From IMG/VR virus record IMGVR_UViG_3300046524_000373, positions 1-39,616 of that record: DNA of 39,616 nucleotides. The stretch is one strand, 5' to 3'. The position numbers and the translations under genes are program-made. Shown piece after piece: positions 33,032 to 37,989 of the stretch. The notes beneath the pieces were generated by a model. The model ran no database searches. It worked only from the letters and a program-made list of their open reading frames with translations, and was not told the DNA's origin. Within the stretch, counting starts at the first letter, position 1. Every line of letters starts with the position of its first letter. Origin of the DNA: a virus.

Positions 33032-33826
33032 ATGTCCACACCCATCATCCCTTGGATGGGCGGCAAACGCCGCCTGGCCGACCGCCTCATCCCGCTCTTC
33101 CCGCCACACGAATGCTACGTTGAAGTCTTTGCCGGCGGCGCCGCGCTCTACTTCATGCGTCCCCAGGCTGCGCCCGTTGAAGTCCTCAACGACATCAACG
33201 GCGACCTGGTGACGCTGTACCGCGTCGTGCAGAACCACCTGGAAGAATTCGTGCGCCAGTTCAAATGGGCGCTCAGCTCCCGCCAGGTGTTCGAGTGGCA
33301 GAAAATGACCCGCCCTGAAACCCTCACTGATATCCAGCGTGCAGCTCGGTTCTTCTACCTGCAGCACCATGCTTTTGCCGGCAAGGTGACGGGGCAGACG
33401 TTTGGTACGGCGACTACTGGCCCGGCCATCAACCTGCTGCGGATTGAGGAAAACCTCTCGGCCGCCTGGCAGCGCCTGTCCGGAACCTACGTCGAAAATC
33501 TACCCTGGCTTGAATGCGCGGAACGTTACGACCGTGCCCACACTTTCCATTACATGGACCCGCCTTATTGGCAGACCGCAGGCTATGGCGTGGACTTCCC
33601 CTTCGAAAACTACGAGCGGATGGCCGACTTCATGCGTCGTTGCAAGGGCAAGGTGATGGTCAGTATCAACGACCATCCGGACATCCGGCGTGTGTTCGAA
33701 GGATTTCATTTTGAGACGCTGGACATTCGCTACACCACGACCAACCAGAGGCAGGGAAAGGCCGAAGTCAGTGGTGAGCTACTGATCATGAACTGGGAGC
33801 CGGCGGTATTAGGCGGGTTGTTCTGA
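33032..33826 (+). CDS. D12-class N6-adenine DNA methylase (Dam-like)
   Basis: The 264-aa protein shows Dam motifs in order: IPWMGGKRRL near residues 6-15 (AdoMet site), VEVFAGGAALYFM near 30 and the catalytic YMDPPYW near 175. Length is typical of D12 enzymes. It would methylate adenine, perhaps in GATC, protecting phage DNA from restriction or altering regulation; the target is not deducible. Located downstream of the lysis genes in the same orientation. Confidence 0.85.
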   Translation: MSTPIIPWMGGKRRLADRLIPLFPPHECYVEVFAGGAALYFMRPQAAPVEVLNDINGDLVTLYRVVQNHLEEFVRQFKWALSSRQVFEWQKMTRPETLTDIQRAARFFYLQHHAFAGKVTGQTFGTATTGPAINLLRIEENLSAAWQRLSGTYVENLPWLECAERYDRAHTFHYMDPPYWQTAGYGVDFPFENYERMADFMRRCKGKVMVSINDHPDIRRVFEGFHFETLDIRYTTTNQRQGKAEVSGELLIMNWEPAVLGGLF

Positions 33827-33858
33827 GCATCCTTGGCATTTTCCGTGAACACCAAGTA

Positions 33859-33888
33859 GAGCCTGCTGATACCCATTTCAGGAGGCTC
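33859..33888. repeat. Inverted repeat after dam
   Basis: GAGCCTGCTGA (33859-33869) and TCAGGAGGCTC (33878-33888) pair at 10 of 11 positions around an 8-nt loop. No T run follows on either strand. It lies between the methylase and the integrase fragment and could be a weak terminator or part of the attachment region. Confidence 0.45.
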
Positions 33889-33946
33889 CGCCTTGACTCT
33901 TTCCAGATTGAGCACGATTCCCGTGCAATCCTGACAGAGAGTCCGT

Positions 33947-34057
33947 ATGACCACCCGCCGCGCTACTTCGCTTCGGCCTGGGCAATTCAAGCACCTAATG
34001 CGCGTTGCAAGGCTCTACTGTCAGGCAGGTATAAAGCAGGCAGGTTGCAGTTCCTGA
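33947..34057 (+). pseudogene. N-terminal remnant of a tyrosine recombinase/integrase
   Basis: A 36-codon frame from ATG 33947 reads TRRATSLRPGQFKHLMRVAR, close to the N terminus of a tyrosine integrase family I recall from Pseudomonas (ATLLTPAQFKHLLRV). The similarity ends after about 25 residues and a stop follows at 34055; none of the catalytic Arg/His/Tyr region remains. It is probably the prophage integrase cut off by a deletion or by gain of the 34.1-kb gene. The call rests on a short memory-based match. Confidence 0.5.
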
Positions 34058-34121
34058 TAAAATGTGAATTGATGTAAAACTAAAACGGGTCCATGTTTTT
34101 CGAGGCGTCAGGTGAGGCCAT

Positions 34122-35606
34122 ATGCGAGCAAGAGATAAACGTTTCAAGGAAAGTATTGAACTTGCCCCAAGTGACTGGTTATTTTGGAAGGATGAGGATT
34201 TTAATAGATGGAGGCGACAGCACGATTTTCCCAGGATTGTAGAGTTTCTTTTTGATAGCTTGCCTTATTTTTCTTTATGGCTCTCTGAACAGGTGGGGTT
34301 GACTGAGGAGGATTTGTTATTTCATGGCCCATCTCGATTTATAAGATTTTACGGCGAAGAGGTAACTTATATTGAGCGCAATGTGGGGGGTTCATTGTTT
34401 CAAGAGATTCCCGCTCGTAAAATTGTTAGATATGAATTTATAGAGAGGGGCGATGCTGATAAGGTAGATCGATTTAGAGTGCTGAGGCAGGTTCGCTTTG
34501 TAAGTTATATTGACTGGGCATTCTCTAGGAGGGAGTGGGCTTTCCCTAATAAAGTAAAAGACATCAGAGATATAGCTCGATTCTTAACTCCTTCAGGAAG
34601 ATCGTGTCAGACCTCAGACTTTTTGAATAGTCATTCTAGTATACAGTTCAATATACCATTGTTCATGCCTAGTGTTTCCATAGAATCGTTGAGGTCAAAA
34701 CATCTGGTAGGGGCCCCACCGATGCTTGAATTGCTTAAGCTTGGTGGAGGCGGAGTAGAAGTAGCAAATGGTCTGATTGGAGAAAAAAATCTTGAGTTCA
34801 CAAATATCGACAATCTGACACTTATCTCTCCAATCATAACAAGCTTTCAAAGTGTCGCATTCTCCACTTTGCGAAATTTTAAGATAGTTGGTTCAATTCA
34901 TGCGATGACTTTTCATCAGTGCTCGGTTGAAATTACCGTGAGCAACGGTGGTTTGTTTTCTTGTAGATTTGAGTATGGTGATCAAAAAATTGACCTGAAA
35001 AATTCGAAGTTGGATAGGTCTTCGATAAAGTCGCGAAGGCTTGGCCTGAAGCTGTCTGATACAGAGGTTTTAGATTGCTGCTTTAAATACTCTGATCTTT
35101 TCACCTTTTCGTCCGCAGAAAAGAAAAATTTCCACAAGTCTGCCAAGATGATTTTTTCACATTTAGGGTACCCTGACTTGGCTGGCAAACATTTTTTATT
35201 AGAGAGGAAGTCAGAGAGGGTAAATAAGTGGGAGGTGTTTTCAGATATTAAGCGAGGCGTGGGAATAAGAAACAGGCTTCTAGCACTGCTTGGCTTTTTC
35301 TGGATGCTTCTACAGGAGTTGTATTGGGGGTATGGGGAAAAGCCTTTTAATGTAATATTGTCCTCGCTATCTCTTATTTTTACTGTTTCGATTTATGGGT
35401 ATTGCGGACAATACTCTAGCACCTATGGAGACGTGTTAGCGTCTGTAATGTACTCCTTTCAGTCGTATACCAATATTTCGATAATGGAAATTAAGCAAGC
35501 TAGCAAAGGGCTTAAATTGACTGGGGCCGTTATGTCATTTTTTGGCTTGATGTCAGTAGGTCTACTGGTGGCTTCGCTGTCGTCTAAATCGAAAAACTAT
35601 AACTAA
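34122..35606 (+). CDS. Large accessory protein with ion-channel-like C terminus
   Basis: The 494-aa protein has a soluble N-terminal region of about 380 residues. A middle portion (about 210-330) suggests short pentapeptide-like or beta-helical turns. The membrane end is GYGEKP at 403-408, a TM near 409-427, a re-entrant-like MYSFQSYTNI near 443-452 and a TM near 466-485. The YGE-(R/K)-P lead and two TMs around a pore loop are typical of pentapeptide/Ion_trans_2 proteins, but the TxGYG selectivity filter is replaced by QSYTN. AGGTGAGG lies 5 nt before the ATG. The gene is AT-rich beside the phage and is probably horizontally gained. Role unknown; defence is possible. Confidence 0.65.
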   Translation: MRARDKRFKESIELAPSDWLFWKDEDFNRWRRQHDFPRIVEFLFDSLPYFSLWLSEQVGLTEEDLLFHGPSRFIRFYGEEVTYIERNVGGSLFQEIPARKIVRYEFIERGDADKVDRFRVLRQVRFVSYIDWAFSRREWAFPNKVKDIRDIARFLTPSGRSCQTSDFLNSHSSIQFNIPLFMPSVSIESLRSKHLVGAPPMLELLKLGGGGVEVANGLIGEKNLEFTNIDNLTLISPIITSFQSVAFSTLRNFKIVGSIHAMTFHQCSVEITVSNGGLFSCRFEYGDQKIDLKNSKLDRSSIKSRRLGLKLSDTEVLDCCFKYSDLFTFSSAEKKNFHKSAKMIFSHLGYPDLAGKHFLLERKSERVNKWEVFSDIKRGVGIRNRLLALLGFFWMLLQELYWGYGEKPFNVILSSLSLIFTVSIYGYCGQYSSTYGDVLASVMYSFQSYTNISIMEIKQASKGLKLTGAVMSFFGLMSVGLLVASLSSKSKNYN

Positions 35607-35675
35607 TCATTTTTGAGGCGTAAGGAGTTTTATCTAGTTGGAATAAAAACCAGAATTCCTATATCTGGCTCAATC

Positions 35676-36557
35676 TTACGCTTCATTGTAAGGAGAAAGC
35701 TCAAGCTGGAAGGATTGATTAGCAGGAGTCGCCTGAAGGATTTGTGCGTGGGGGTAGAGACGATTGATTGCTAGTGATAAAGACGCTCGTTGGTCAAGCG
35801 GCATGCGGCAGCCAAAGACAACTCCTGTAAGCTCTTTAGCTCCAAACTTTACGTCTTCATGTGGGGCGTTTTTATTTCGTCCGTCACCTGAAAATATCCT
35901 CCACTCATTTTCATGTTTCCAAGCGTCAGATTTTGTATAAGTCAAAGTATTTATTCGTTTTGCTTGGTCGAAATTAATTAGTCCTGACAAGAAATCCGAA
36001 AGCTCGTCTTCTTCAAAGAGCATGGGTATGTCTTTCATATAAGACATTGGCTTGGCTGTTTTGTATGGGCTGTCTGCTCCAGGTTCATCTTGAAAGCGGA
36101 GGACTACACCTTTGTTGCTGTCGGCATAATATGCCCACATAAGTTGGTTGATGGGCGAATCAGTCAAGCATAAGATTTTAGACTTGGAGAGATGGTCTCT
36201 TGTGTCGCGATACGTTTGATGAATATTTTTGTCTATAGCTGCAAATGATTTCCGAATCCCATCTTCCATATTGCGCATAAAGACCTTTTTAGGTACGTCT
36301 TTAAGGTATGGTCTCATGAGGTCAAATGCAGCTGACATTTTGTTTTCAGGATGTCCCCGGAGCTCACCCATATGTACCTTCCAAAGTTTGTCTAGCGTAG
36401 CGCGAAGTACTTTGTCACGATCAAAGTCGATACGAAGGTCAAACTGGATGTCGTAGGGGTCGTTCAAGGTCGCAGGTGTACTCCAACGAAGGGTCTGGTT
36501 TTCAAGCACAATGTTAGCTGTGCTGTAGGGCATATACTTATAGAAGGCTTCAGGCAT
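35676..36557 (-). CDS. DUF2971 protein
   Basis: The 293-aa protein matches DUF2971: FYKYMP at the start, STPATLNDPYD near residues 29-39, LCLTDSPINQLMWAYYAD near 134-151 followed by KGVVLRF, and KHENEWRIFSGDG near 220. The family has no settled biochemical role and is often found in variable or defence-linked loci. It converges with the channel-like gene (69 bp between stops) and is also AT-rich, suggesting joint acquisition. Confidence 0.75.
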   Translation of the reverse strand: MPEAFYKYMPYSTANIVLENQTLRWSTPATLNDPYDIQFDLRIDFDRDKVLRATLDKLWKVHMGELRGHPENKMSAAFDLMRPYLKDVPKKVFMRNMEDGIRKSFAAIDKNIHQTYRDTRDHLSKSKILCLTDSPINQLMWAYYADSNKGVVLRFQDEPGADSPYKTAKPMSYMKDIPMLFEEDELSDFLSGLINFDQAKRINTLTYTKSDAWKHENEWRIFSGDGRNKNAPHEDVKFGAKELTGVVFGCRMPLDQRASLSLAINRLYPHAQILQATPANQSFQLELSPYNEA

Positions 36558-36983
36558 GGTTCTGGCTCAATGTGACTGTTTGATTCGATGCCATCATGCC
36601 TCGTCTCGATTGTCAATTGGCGCGGTTCGCGGCCGAAACCATCGCCTACCTTCGATAGACTGGCTTTCAAAAATGTTAGTGTGATGCACTCTTGCCTGTG
36701 TGAAAGCTTGCTTAAAAATTGCTACCCGACTACGAAATTAAGCGGGATGGGGCTGGCGGGCCGGACATCTGATGGGTAACTATATATATCCATTCCATGA
36801 TCGAACGGATCGTTCTTGTGGAACCTCAAGCGCCCAGCATGGGGCAAACCATACGCCAATCTATGCCATCCAATGCCAAATATGCGTTTATGCAACAGGA
36901 TGCATGCACGCATTACAGCCAGCAACCACGGGCCTATCCGCCAAAACCGTGCTCATACTCCTACACAATCGGGGTGTGCTTTG
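36558..36983. other. Gene-poor stretch
   Basis: No frame here has a convincing ribosome site or recognisable product. It contains TATATATATCC near 36781 and one copy of a 20-bp repeat (36706-36725). Several short frames exist on both strands but look random or decayed. Confidence 0.5.
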
Positions 36984-37472: not shown

Positions 37473-37757
37473 TTACCACTTCGAACGAGGACGTTGCCGT
37501 GTGTGGAATACGCCAAGGATCTGCAGTCGATCACCCCGCACTCTATACGGGATCAGATAGGACCAGTTGGGGACTGCCCATTCGCGAGTATGTTTCACCC
37601 GACCTTCGCGTCCTATAGAAGGAAACTGAGCCAGCCTGTCGACGCTGGCGAAAATGGCATCCGAGAAGTCGTCAGCGGCTTTTGGATTTTCGAGAGCGAT
37701 ATAATTCGCTTCGTCTTCCAGATTTTTGAGTGCTTTTTCAAGCCACTCAACCCGCAT
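37473..37757 (-). CDS. RelE/ParE-family toxin
   Basis: The 94-aa protein has the ParE pattern: VEWLEKALKNLEDEANYIA at the start, AADDFSDAIFASVDRLAQFP, GREGRVKHTREWAV and a YLIPYRV strand, ending with ILGVFHTRQRP. ParE toxins poison gyrase and RelE toxins cleave mRNA at ribosomes; the target here is unknown. ATG 37757, with GGAG 5 nt upstream, overlaps the antitoxin by 11 bp. Confidence 0.85.
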   Translation of the reverse strand: MRVEWLEKALKNLEDEANYIALENPKAADDFSDAIFASVDRLAQFPSIGREGRVKHTREWAVPNWSYLIPYRVRGDRLQILGVFHTRQRPRSKW

Positions 37758-37989
37758 TCTTGCTCCAGCGCCTAGCGCGCATGGCTGCCACTTGGTCATC
37801 AGTGGCGAATTTGCCTTCGTCGGCGTTTTTTATCGCCAGCTCGATCTGAGCGGTTAGCGTTTTTTCGTGCTCGATGTAGTCGCGAAGAACATCCATTGCT
37901 AGGTAGCTCGCTGTCTGGCCGTTGGTTTTGGCCAAGTCGGCGAGAGAGTTGGACAGGTCTTCCGGCAGGTTTAGGGATATCCCAGTCAT
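37747..37989 (-). CDS. Ribbon-helix-helix antitoxin
   Basis: An 80-aa CopG/RHH protein: N-terminal strand ISLNLPEDL, helices around TASYLAMDVLRDYIEHE, and a C-terminal toxin-binding tail with VAAMRARRW. It would bind the ParE-type toxin and repress the operon. It precedes and overlaps the toxin gene, the usual order. Confidence 0.85.
   Translation of the reverse strand: MTGISLNLPEDLSNSLADLAKTNGQTASYLAMDVLRDYIEHEKTLTAQIELAIKNADEGKFATDDQVAAMRARRWSKNAG

Follow-up and report, generated by a model that had tools for sequence, protein, structure and literature searches.

The open reading frame at positions 34,122–35,606 of a 39,616-base virus contig from IMG/VR (the whole of this stretch is called the window here) encodes a protein that almost certainly descends from two-transmembrane (2TM) potassium channels, as judged by sequence comparison. 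The channel-like unit is joined to a large soluble region, and the residues at the position of the potassium selectivity filter have been replaced. The gene is very probably mobile cargo. A role for its product in phage conflict is slightly favoured, and the best reading, a tentative one, is that of an infection-gated leak that would not be selective for potassium. The protein is a reasonable candidate for a channel-type defence protein.

Gene and domain structure

Shuffling the bases of the surrounding 2.7-kb stretch 500 times gave open frames of at most 235 codons, compared with the 494 residues encoded here, and full-length homologues with 72, 68 and 64% identity to the window protein occur in three Pseudomonas genomes. 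A chance frame is therefore ruled out. The dN/dS ratio is 0.07–0.14 over the whole gene (dS above 1, distances near saturation, so that the values are rough) and approximately 0.1–0.2 in the pore region, where per-segment values are noisier. These substitution patterns indicate that the frame is under purifying selection. Since selection remains strong in the pore region, the gene is not decaying; a pseudogene was considered and ruled out by the ratios and by the presence of four intact copies. The AT-richness described in the original prediction is evident: GC is 40% and GC3 41% in the gene, compared with 60% and 75–80% in the phage core. The features of the locus are as follows.

33,032–33,826, + strand: Dam-type N6-adenine methyltransferase at the end of the late region, which marks the cargo spot (PF02086, phrog_56, 80 IMG/VR relatives)
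34,122–35,606, + strand: filter-less channel-like protein, 494 residues, standalone gene (open frame, homologues at 64–72%, dN/dS, hhalign)
34,122–34,721, + strand: N-terminal soluble domain, residues 1–200 (alignments)
34,722–35,111, + strand: strand-rich stretch, residues 201–330, putative beta-helix (low-confidence model, strands 212–293)
35,112–35,330, + strand: predicted helical linker, residues 331–403 (low-confidence model; conserved in alignment)
35,331–35,345, + strand: YGEKP motif before TM1, residues 404–408 (sequence; relatives have WG[YFH]GE[KR]P)
35,343–35,408, + strand: TM1, residues 408–429 (hydropathy)
35,472–35,489, + strand: position of the lost selectivity filter, N451–E456 (NISIME), equivalent to TLGYGD (gapless alignments to canonical relatives)
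35,508–35,585, + strand: TM2, residues 463–488, then the conserved tail SKSKNYN (hydropathy, alignment)
35,676–36,557, − strand: DUF2971 protein, convergent neighbour, PADLOC candidate PDC-S31, also cargo (PF11185, PDC-S31, phrog_1762)

The order described, of soluble region, WGYGEKP, transmembrane segment, pore loop and second transmembrane segment, is found in the sequence. The hydrophobic segments lie at residues 408–429 and 463–488, with none before residue 385. The soluble region of approximately 380 residues is likewise present, not as one uniform domain but as an N-terminal domain, a strand-rich part at about 201–330 (a low-confidence prediction) and a helical linker. The first half of the N-terminal domain (FW..EDFNRWRRQHDFPR...LPYFSLWLS) is common to relatives with a canonical filter, as shown by alignments. 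A full-length AlphaFold2 monomer from a four-sequence alignment is not usable as a structure (mean pLDDT 36.3, pTM 0.26). It places short strands at 212–293, long helices at 331–404 and further helices at 406–428, 435–451 and 462–487; residues 201–330 probably form a beta-helix. Its TM-helix-TM topology has the expected order and carries little weight at pLDDT 36.

The window protein has no match in Pfam, NCBIfam, PADLOC or PHROGs. PADLOC models give none at E ≤ 1, and neither does Pfam for pentapeptide repeats at the same threshold; the L014 protein matches PF00805 at 3.8e-13. The Ion_trans_2 model does not match at its gathering cutoff of 22.5 bits, below which the clade member L003 also falls (18.7 bits). 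The protein's own profile matches solved structures at chance level (best E 0.23).

Ancestry and the replaced filter

The connection to potassium channels is provided by distant relatives. A search of Pseudomonas genomes with a profile of the clade yielded the full-length relatives L012 and L013. An Aeromonas member (L005) came from a record in a plasmid collection, and L150–L152 came from IMG/VR (query A5). Searches by tblastn found no relatives in phage records and only the Aeromonas protein in plasmid records; viral-contig scans with A2, A4 and A6 found none. The canonical relatives (L150 of a P2-like prophage, L012 and L013 of Pseudomonas, L005 of Aeromonas) have the domain order of the window protein: an N-terminal domain, a strand-rich domain and a WGFGERP-2TM channel. 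They share with the window clade an N-terminal motif, WG[FY]GE[RK]P, TM1, the pore helix, TM2 and an SK[ST]K.Y tail. The motif EQFN..R...DYP..F is common to L012, L013 and L150, and L005 as read starts after it. All four retain TLGYGD or TLGFGD, whereas the window clade has NISIME. The clade also has some 50 more residues in the soluble part, and identity is only about 25%.

Alignment of the window family with the canonical-filter family by hhalign reaches 99.9% (E 1.8e-31, columns 23–493). The canonical relatives score above the Ion_trans_2 cutoff of 22.5 bits (L150 59.6, L012 43.0 and L005 41.6 bits). By sequence, their profile matches solved potassium channels, TRAAK at 2.2e-9 and also Kv4.2, as well as bacterial 'potassium channel protein' entries at about 4e-6. 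Because the window family is tied by profile to relatives that both score with Ion_trans_2 and match solved channels, its protein is read as a potassium-channel descendant with a replaced filter. The gapless pore alignment and the full-length profile match make the TM1–pore helix–TM2 unit homologous to 2TM P-loop potassium channels.

In the gapless alignment to canonical relatives, SFQSYTNISIMEI pairs with SIVTFVTLGYGDI. Each of the six residues of TLGYGD is changed at N451–E456, which read NISIME, and both glycines are gone in all four clade members. These share SYTN[IV]S[IL] and have no TxGYG. The original prediction had QSYTN standing in place of TxGYG. It was right about the absence of the filter and off by about four residues in register; the filter equivalent is N451–E456, and QSYT is therefore the end of the pore helix. 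A pore tree was built without the filter columns. The four lost-filter rows group together (99/98), next to the full-length relatives with a canonical filter (94/85), with long branches making the deeper joins unsure. Taken together, the sequences indicate a single replacement of the filter, within a Pseudomonas clade of just four sequences. In a survey of YGEKP proteins, 53 rows had a canonical filter and four did not (L001–L003 and L119), a count that leaves out the window protein and includes near-duplicates. The filter-less clade was found in three of 399 Pseudomonas genomes, the same three as already found.

A repeat or beta-helix domain joined to a YGEKP-2TM pore is a known build, common among channels whose filter is canonical. 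The claim that no described system has this combination is uncontradicted by PADLOC, NCBIfam, PHROGs and PMC; the build itself is not new. What these annotation resources (PADLOC, PHROGs and NCBIfam) have missed is the family of N-terminal domain, strand-rich part and 2TM unit in its filter-less form, which is unannotated mobile cargo. The pentapeptide-repeat potassium channels (PF00805 plus PF07885), common in Pseudomonadales, resemble the window protein in having a repeat domain, a helical linker, GYGEKP and a 2TM pore, and hhalign relates them to the window family at 94.7%. They differ in their canonical TLGYGD and recognisable repeats, and they lack the N-terminal domain of the window protein.

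A two-gene module was also observed on plasmids and genomes of Pseudomonas, Rhizobium, Priestia and another gammaproteobacterium. A pentapeptide-repeat 2TM protein is followed directly by a nucleotidyltransferase (L119:647–2244, L154:2478–4046, L155:2938–4493 and L153:2932–4535). The potassium filter is absent in three of these modules (L119, L154 and L155); in L153 it reads TVGYGQ. Among the nucleotidyltransferases, two weakly match the PADLOC candidates PDC-S09/PDC-M05A. As in the window clade, a G[YNH]GE[KR]P-2TM protein has independently lost its filter, mostly in mobile DNA. The module differs in its true pentapeptide repeats, its linked nucleotidyltransferase and the lack of a common N-terminal domain. 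With filter loss in this lineage as well, channel scaffolds have lost the filter more than once.

Genomic settings

The late region before the channel gene carries the baseplate hub GPD, a GH19 lysin, an Rz-like ORF and the Dam methylase. The gene had been placed exactly at the prophage edge. It does follow the methylase that closes the late region; the edge itself lies further on, since the DUF2971 gene (phrog_1762), a phrog_12397 ORF and a ParE/RHH pair stand beyond it. The right boundary of the prophage probably falls within 36.6–38.9 kb. Neither att repeats of at least 14 bases nor a recognisable integrase gene was found within the window. Near the right end, a ParE-type toxin gene overlaps a ribbon-helix-helix-like antitoxin gene (37,473–37,989). 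At the left end (2–367) lies the end of an AAAKPAAKPA-type repeat protein, AlgP-like by eye, which is probably host chromosome. The left arm also carries a PutAbiC gene (PF16872; 4236–5405, GC3 43%), a second likely defence cargo.

Eighty IMG/VR contigs carry a Dam protein at 95–98% identity. Their homology to the window stops after the Dam gene, and the channel gene is missing from all of them. The ORFs behind Dam fall into 158 clusters from 256 ORFs, host DNA and spurious ORFs included. In a choice of 38 cargo proteins, PADLOC and Pfam identify PtuA/PtuB (Septu), SIR2 and a STAND NTPase among others, and the cargo also includes UmuC-like, SRAP, colicin-type and subtilase genes. These mixed contents therefore point to a site for cargo of a general kind, defence genes included. 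The variable spot is seen at 33,827–36,560 of the window and in L022–L101, behind the Dam gene of this Pseudomonas prophage group. A functional pairing of the channel gene with its DUF2971 neighbour was considered and is unsupported: no DUF2971 gene stands beside the other copies (L001–L003). A literature search, mostly without subscription journals, found no paper linking pentapeptide-type channels or DUF2971 to defence.

Relatives occupy varied settings. The canonical L150 gene (34% GC) lies between Phage_tail_S (gpS) and the Phage_base_V/spike gene (gpV) of a P2-like phage of 54% GC. The canonical L012 gene adjoins prophage lysis genes; a GH19 lysin lies nearby, as does an integrase-like ORF that is truncated and has no Pfam match, and an ORF whose family recurs in the Dam cargo spot (L040). 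Of the filter-less copies, L002 has a TIR_2 gene 222 bp away, part of a cluster that includes three strong matches to ThsB (Thoeris), L001 is near DUF4238 and an IrrE-type gene, and L003 is near a weak PDC-M30A match. The L013 gene is near unannotated genes, and L005 has ordinary chromosomal neighbours, as judged by eye. No constant partner gene was found across the neighbourhoods of the family members examined. Homologues are thus not confined to housekeeping contexts: L005 has an ordinary chromosomal setting, and other members occur at the moron site of a P2-like phage, at the end of a prophage and by a TIR cluster of Thoeris. The proposal of a channel homologue without a potassium filter as mobile, prophage- or defence-associated cargo gains support from the alignments and these gene settings. 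An unannotated family (MTNFVFSRRA.QARIN...) was noted beside a canonical-filter channel relative in one genome (L158:3851–5218) and in the Dam cargo spot of a related prophage (L040:8310–9677). The link between the two was made by eye, and L158 has no Pfam or PADLOC match. For the canonical relatives L150 and L158, PADLOC gives no match at E ≤ 0.001.

Proposed mechanism and alternatives

The proposed mechanism can be set out in steps. (i) The gene would have been acquired horizontally as prophage cargo (a moron). (ii) Its product, a member of the 2TM P-loop channel superfamily, would sit in the inner membrane with the large N-terminal part in the cytoplasm. (iii) Four subunits may form a pore that is closed in the lysogen. 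(iv) A cue from infection would be received by the cytoplasmic N-terminal domain and beta-helix. (v) The pore would then open and pass ions without potassium selectivity, as the TxGYG filter is absent. (vi) Collapse of the membrane potential would abort the superinfecting phage. Gated, non-selective leakage as the mechanism is put at somewhat short of an even chance. The fuller proposal is more speculative and, as it stands, unlikely: a single-gene defence effector, with an infection-sensing N-terminal domain and beta-helix fused to a gated leak derived from a potassium channel by filter replacement, in a conflict that phage-borne, potassium-selective relatives may share.

The nearest functional comparison is with the RexAB-type systems (lambda RexAB, Sbash gp30/gp31 and P. 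putida RexABpp), which like the window gene are prophage-borne. RexB and Sbash gp31 are proposed to be channels opened by infection or to damage membranes (PMC6426596, PMC12894663), and the RexB analogue of P. putida damages membranes with no measurable depolarisation (PMC12894663). RexB has four transmembrane segments and a separate RexA sensor, whereas the window protein combines a sensor-like region and a 2TM pore in one chain, with no partner seen. RexAB features are absent from the window locus, which has two transmembrane segments, a convergent DUF2971 neighbour and no partner conserved in L001–L003.

The main rival to a gated leak, because every filter position has changed, is a non-conducting descendant in which the 2TM unit only anchors or oligomerises a cytoplasmic N-terminal domain and beta-helix that senses or binds a phage or host protein. 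The replaced filter, NISIM, has lost both glycines, and the pore may not conduct at all. The filter-less members of the pentapeptide-2TM/nucleotidyltransferase lineage also suggest a dispensable pore, and TM1 is the least conserved stretch in the clade comparison (45–65% identity). A pure anchor need not, however, retain SYTN[IV]S and TM2 (75–81% identity), which are conserved under purifying selection, and we consider this reading rather doubtful. It is improbable that the channel serves ordinary cell physiology (osmotic or potassium homeostasis) and is carried by chance, or modulates a resident channel. Canonical-filter YGEKP pentapeptide channels are indeed common in Pseudomonadales chromosomes, and the Aeromonas member sits among ordinary chromosomal genes, but the patchy distribution, low GC and phage or defence settings argue against such a role. 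A role as silent partner within a pentapeptide channel of the same cell was rejected, as the genomes G001–G003 contain no such channel to modulate.

Small prophage membrane morons often act by superinfection exclusion. A membrane protein that constitutively keeps DNA from entering or the receptor from being used, with no gated pore, would suit a gene standing alone in accessory DNA. A cytoplasmic region this large and conserved, together with the complete anatomy of a channel, seems to exceed what known small exclusion proteins need, and the relatives L002, L003 and L013 lie outside recognised prophages, so that exclusion too appears a poor prospect. A benefit to the prophage itself, through the timing of lysis or through induction and not through defence, is suggested by the position of the gene, which comes after the lysis and Dam genes that end the late region and shares their strand. 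With the channel gene missing from all 80 Dam-bearing contigs and copies existing far from such prophages, this explanation is very improbable.

If the window protein conducts, it would represent a potassium channel remodelled into a phage-defence pore by filter replacement. The relatives that keep the filter, which are about 25% identical to it and found in comparable settings, would then be natural controls for the role of selectivity in channel-type immunity. A protein that conducts no ions would instead be a clear example of a channel scaffold retained for a different function.
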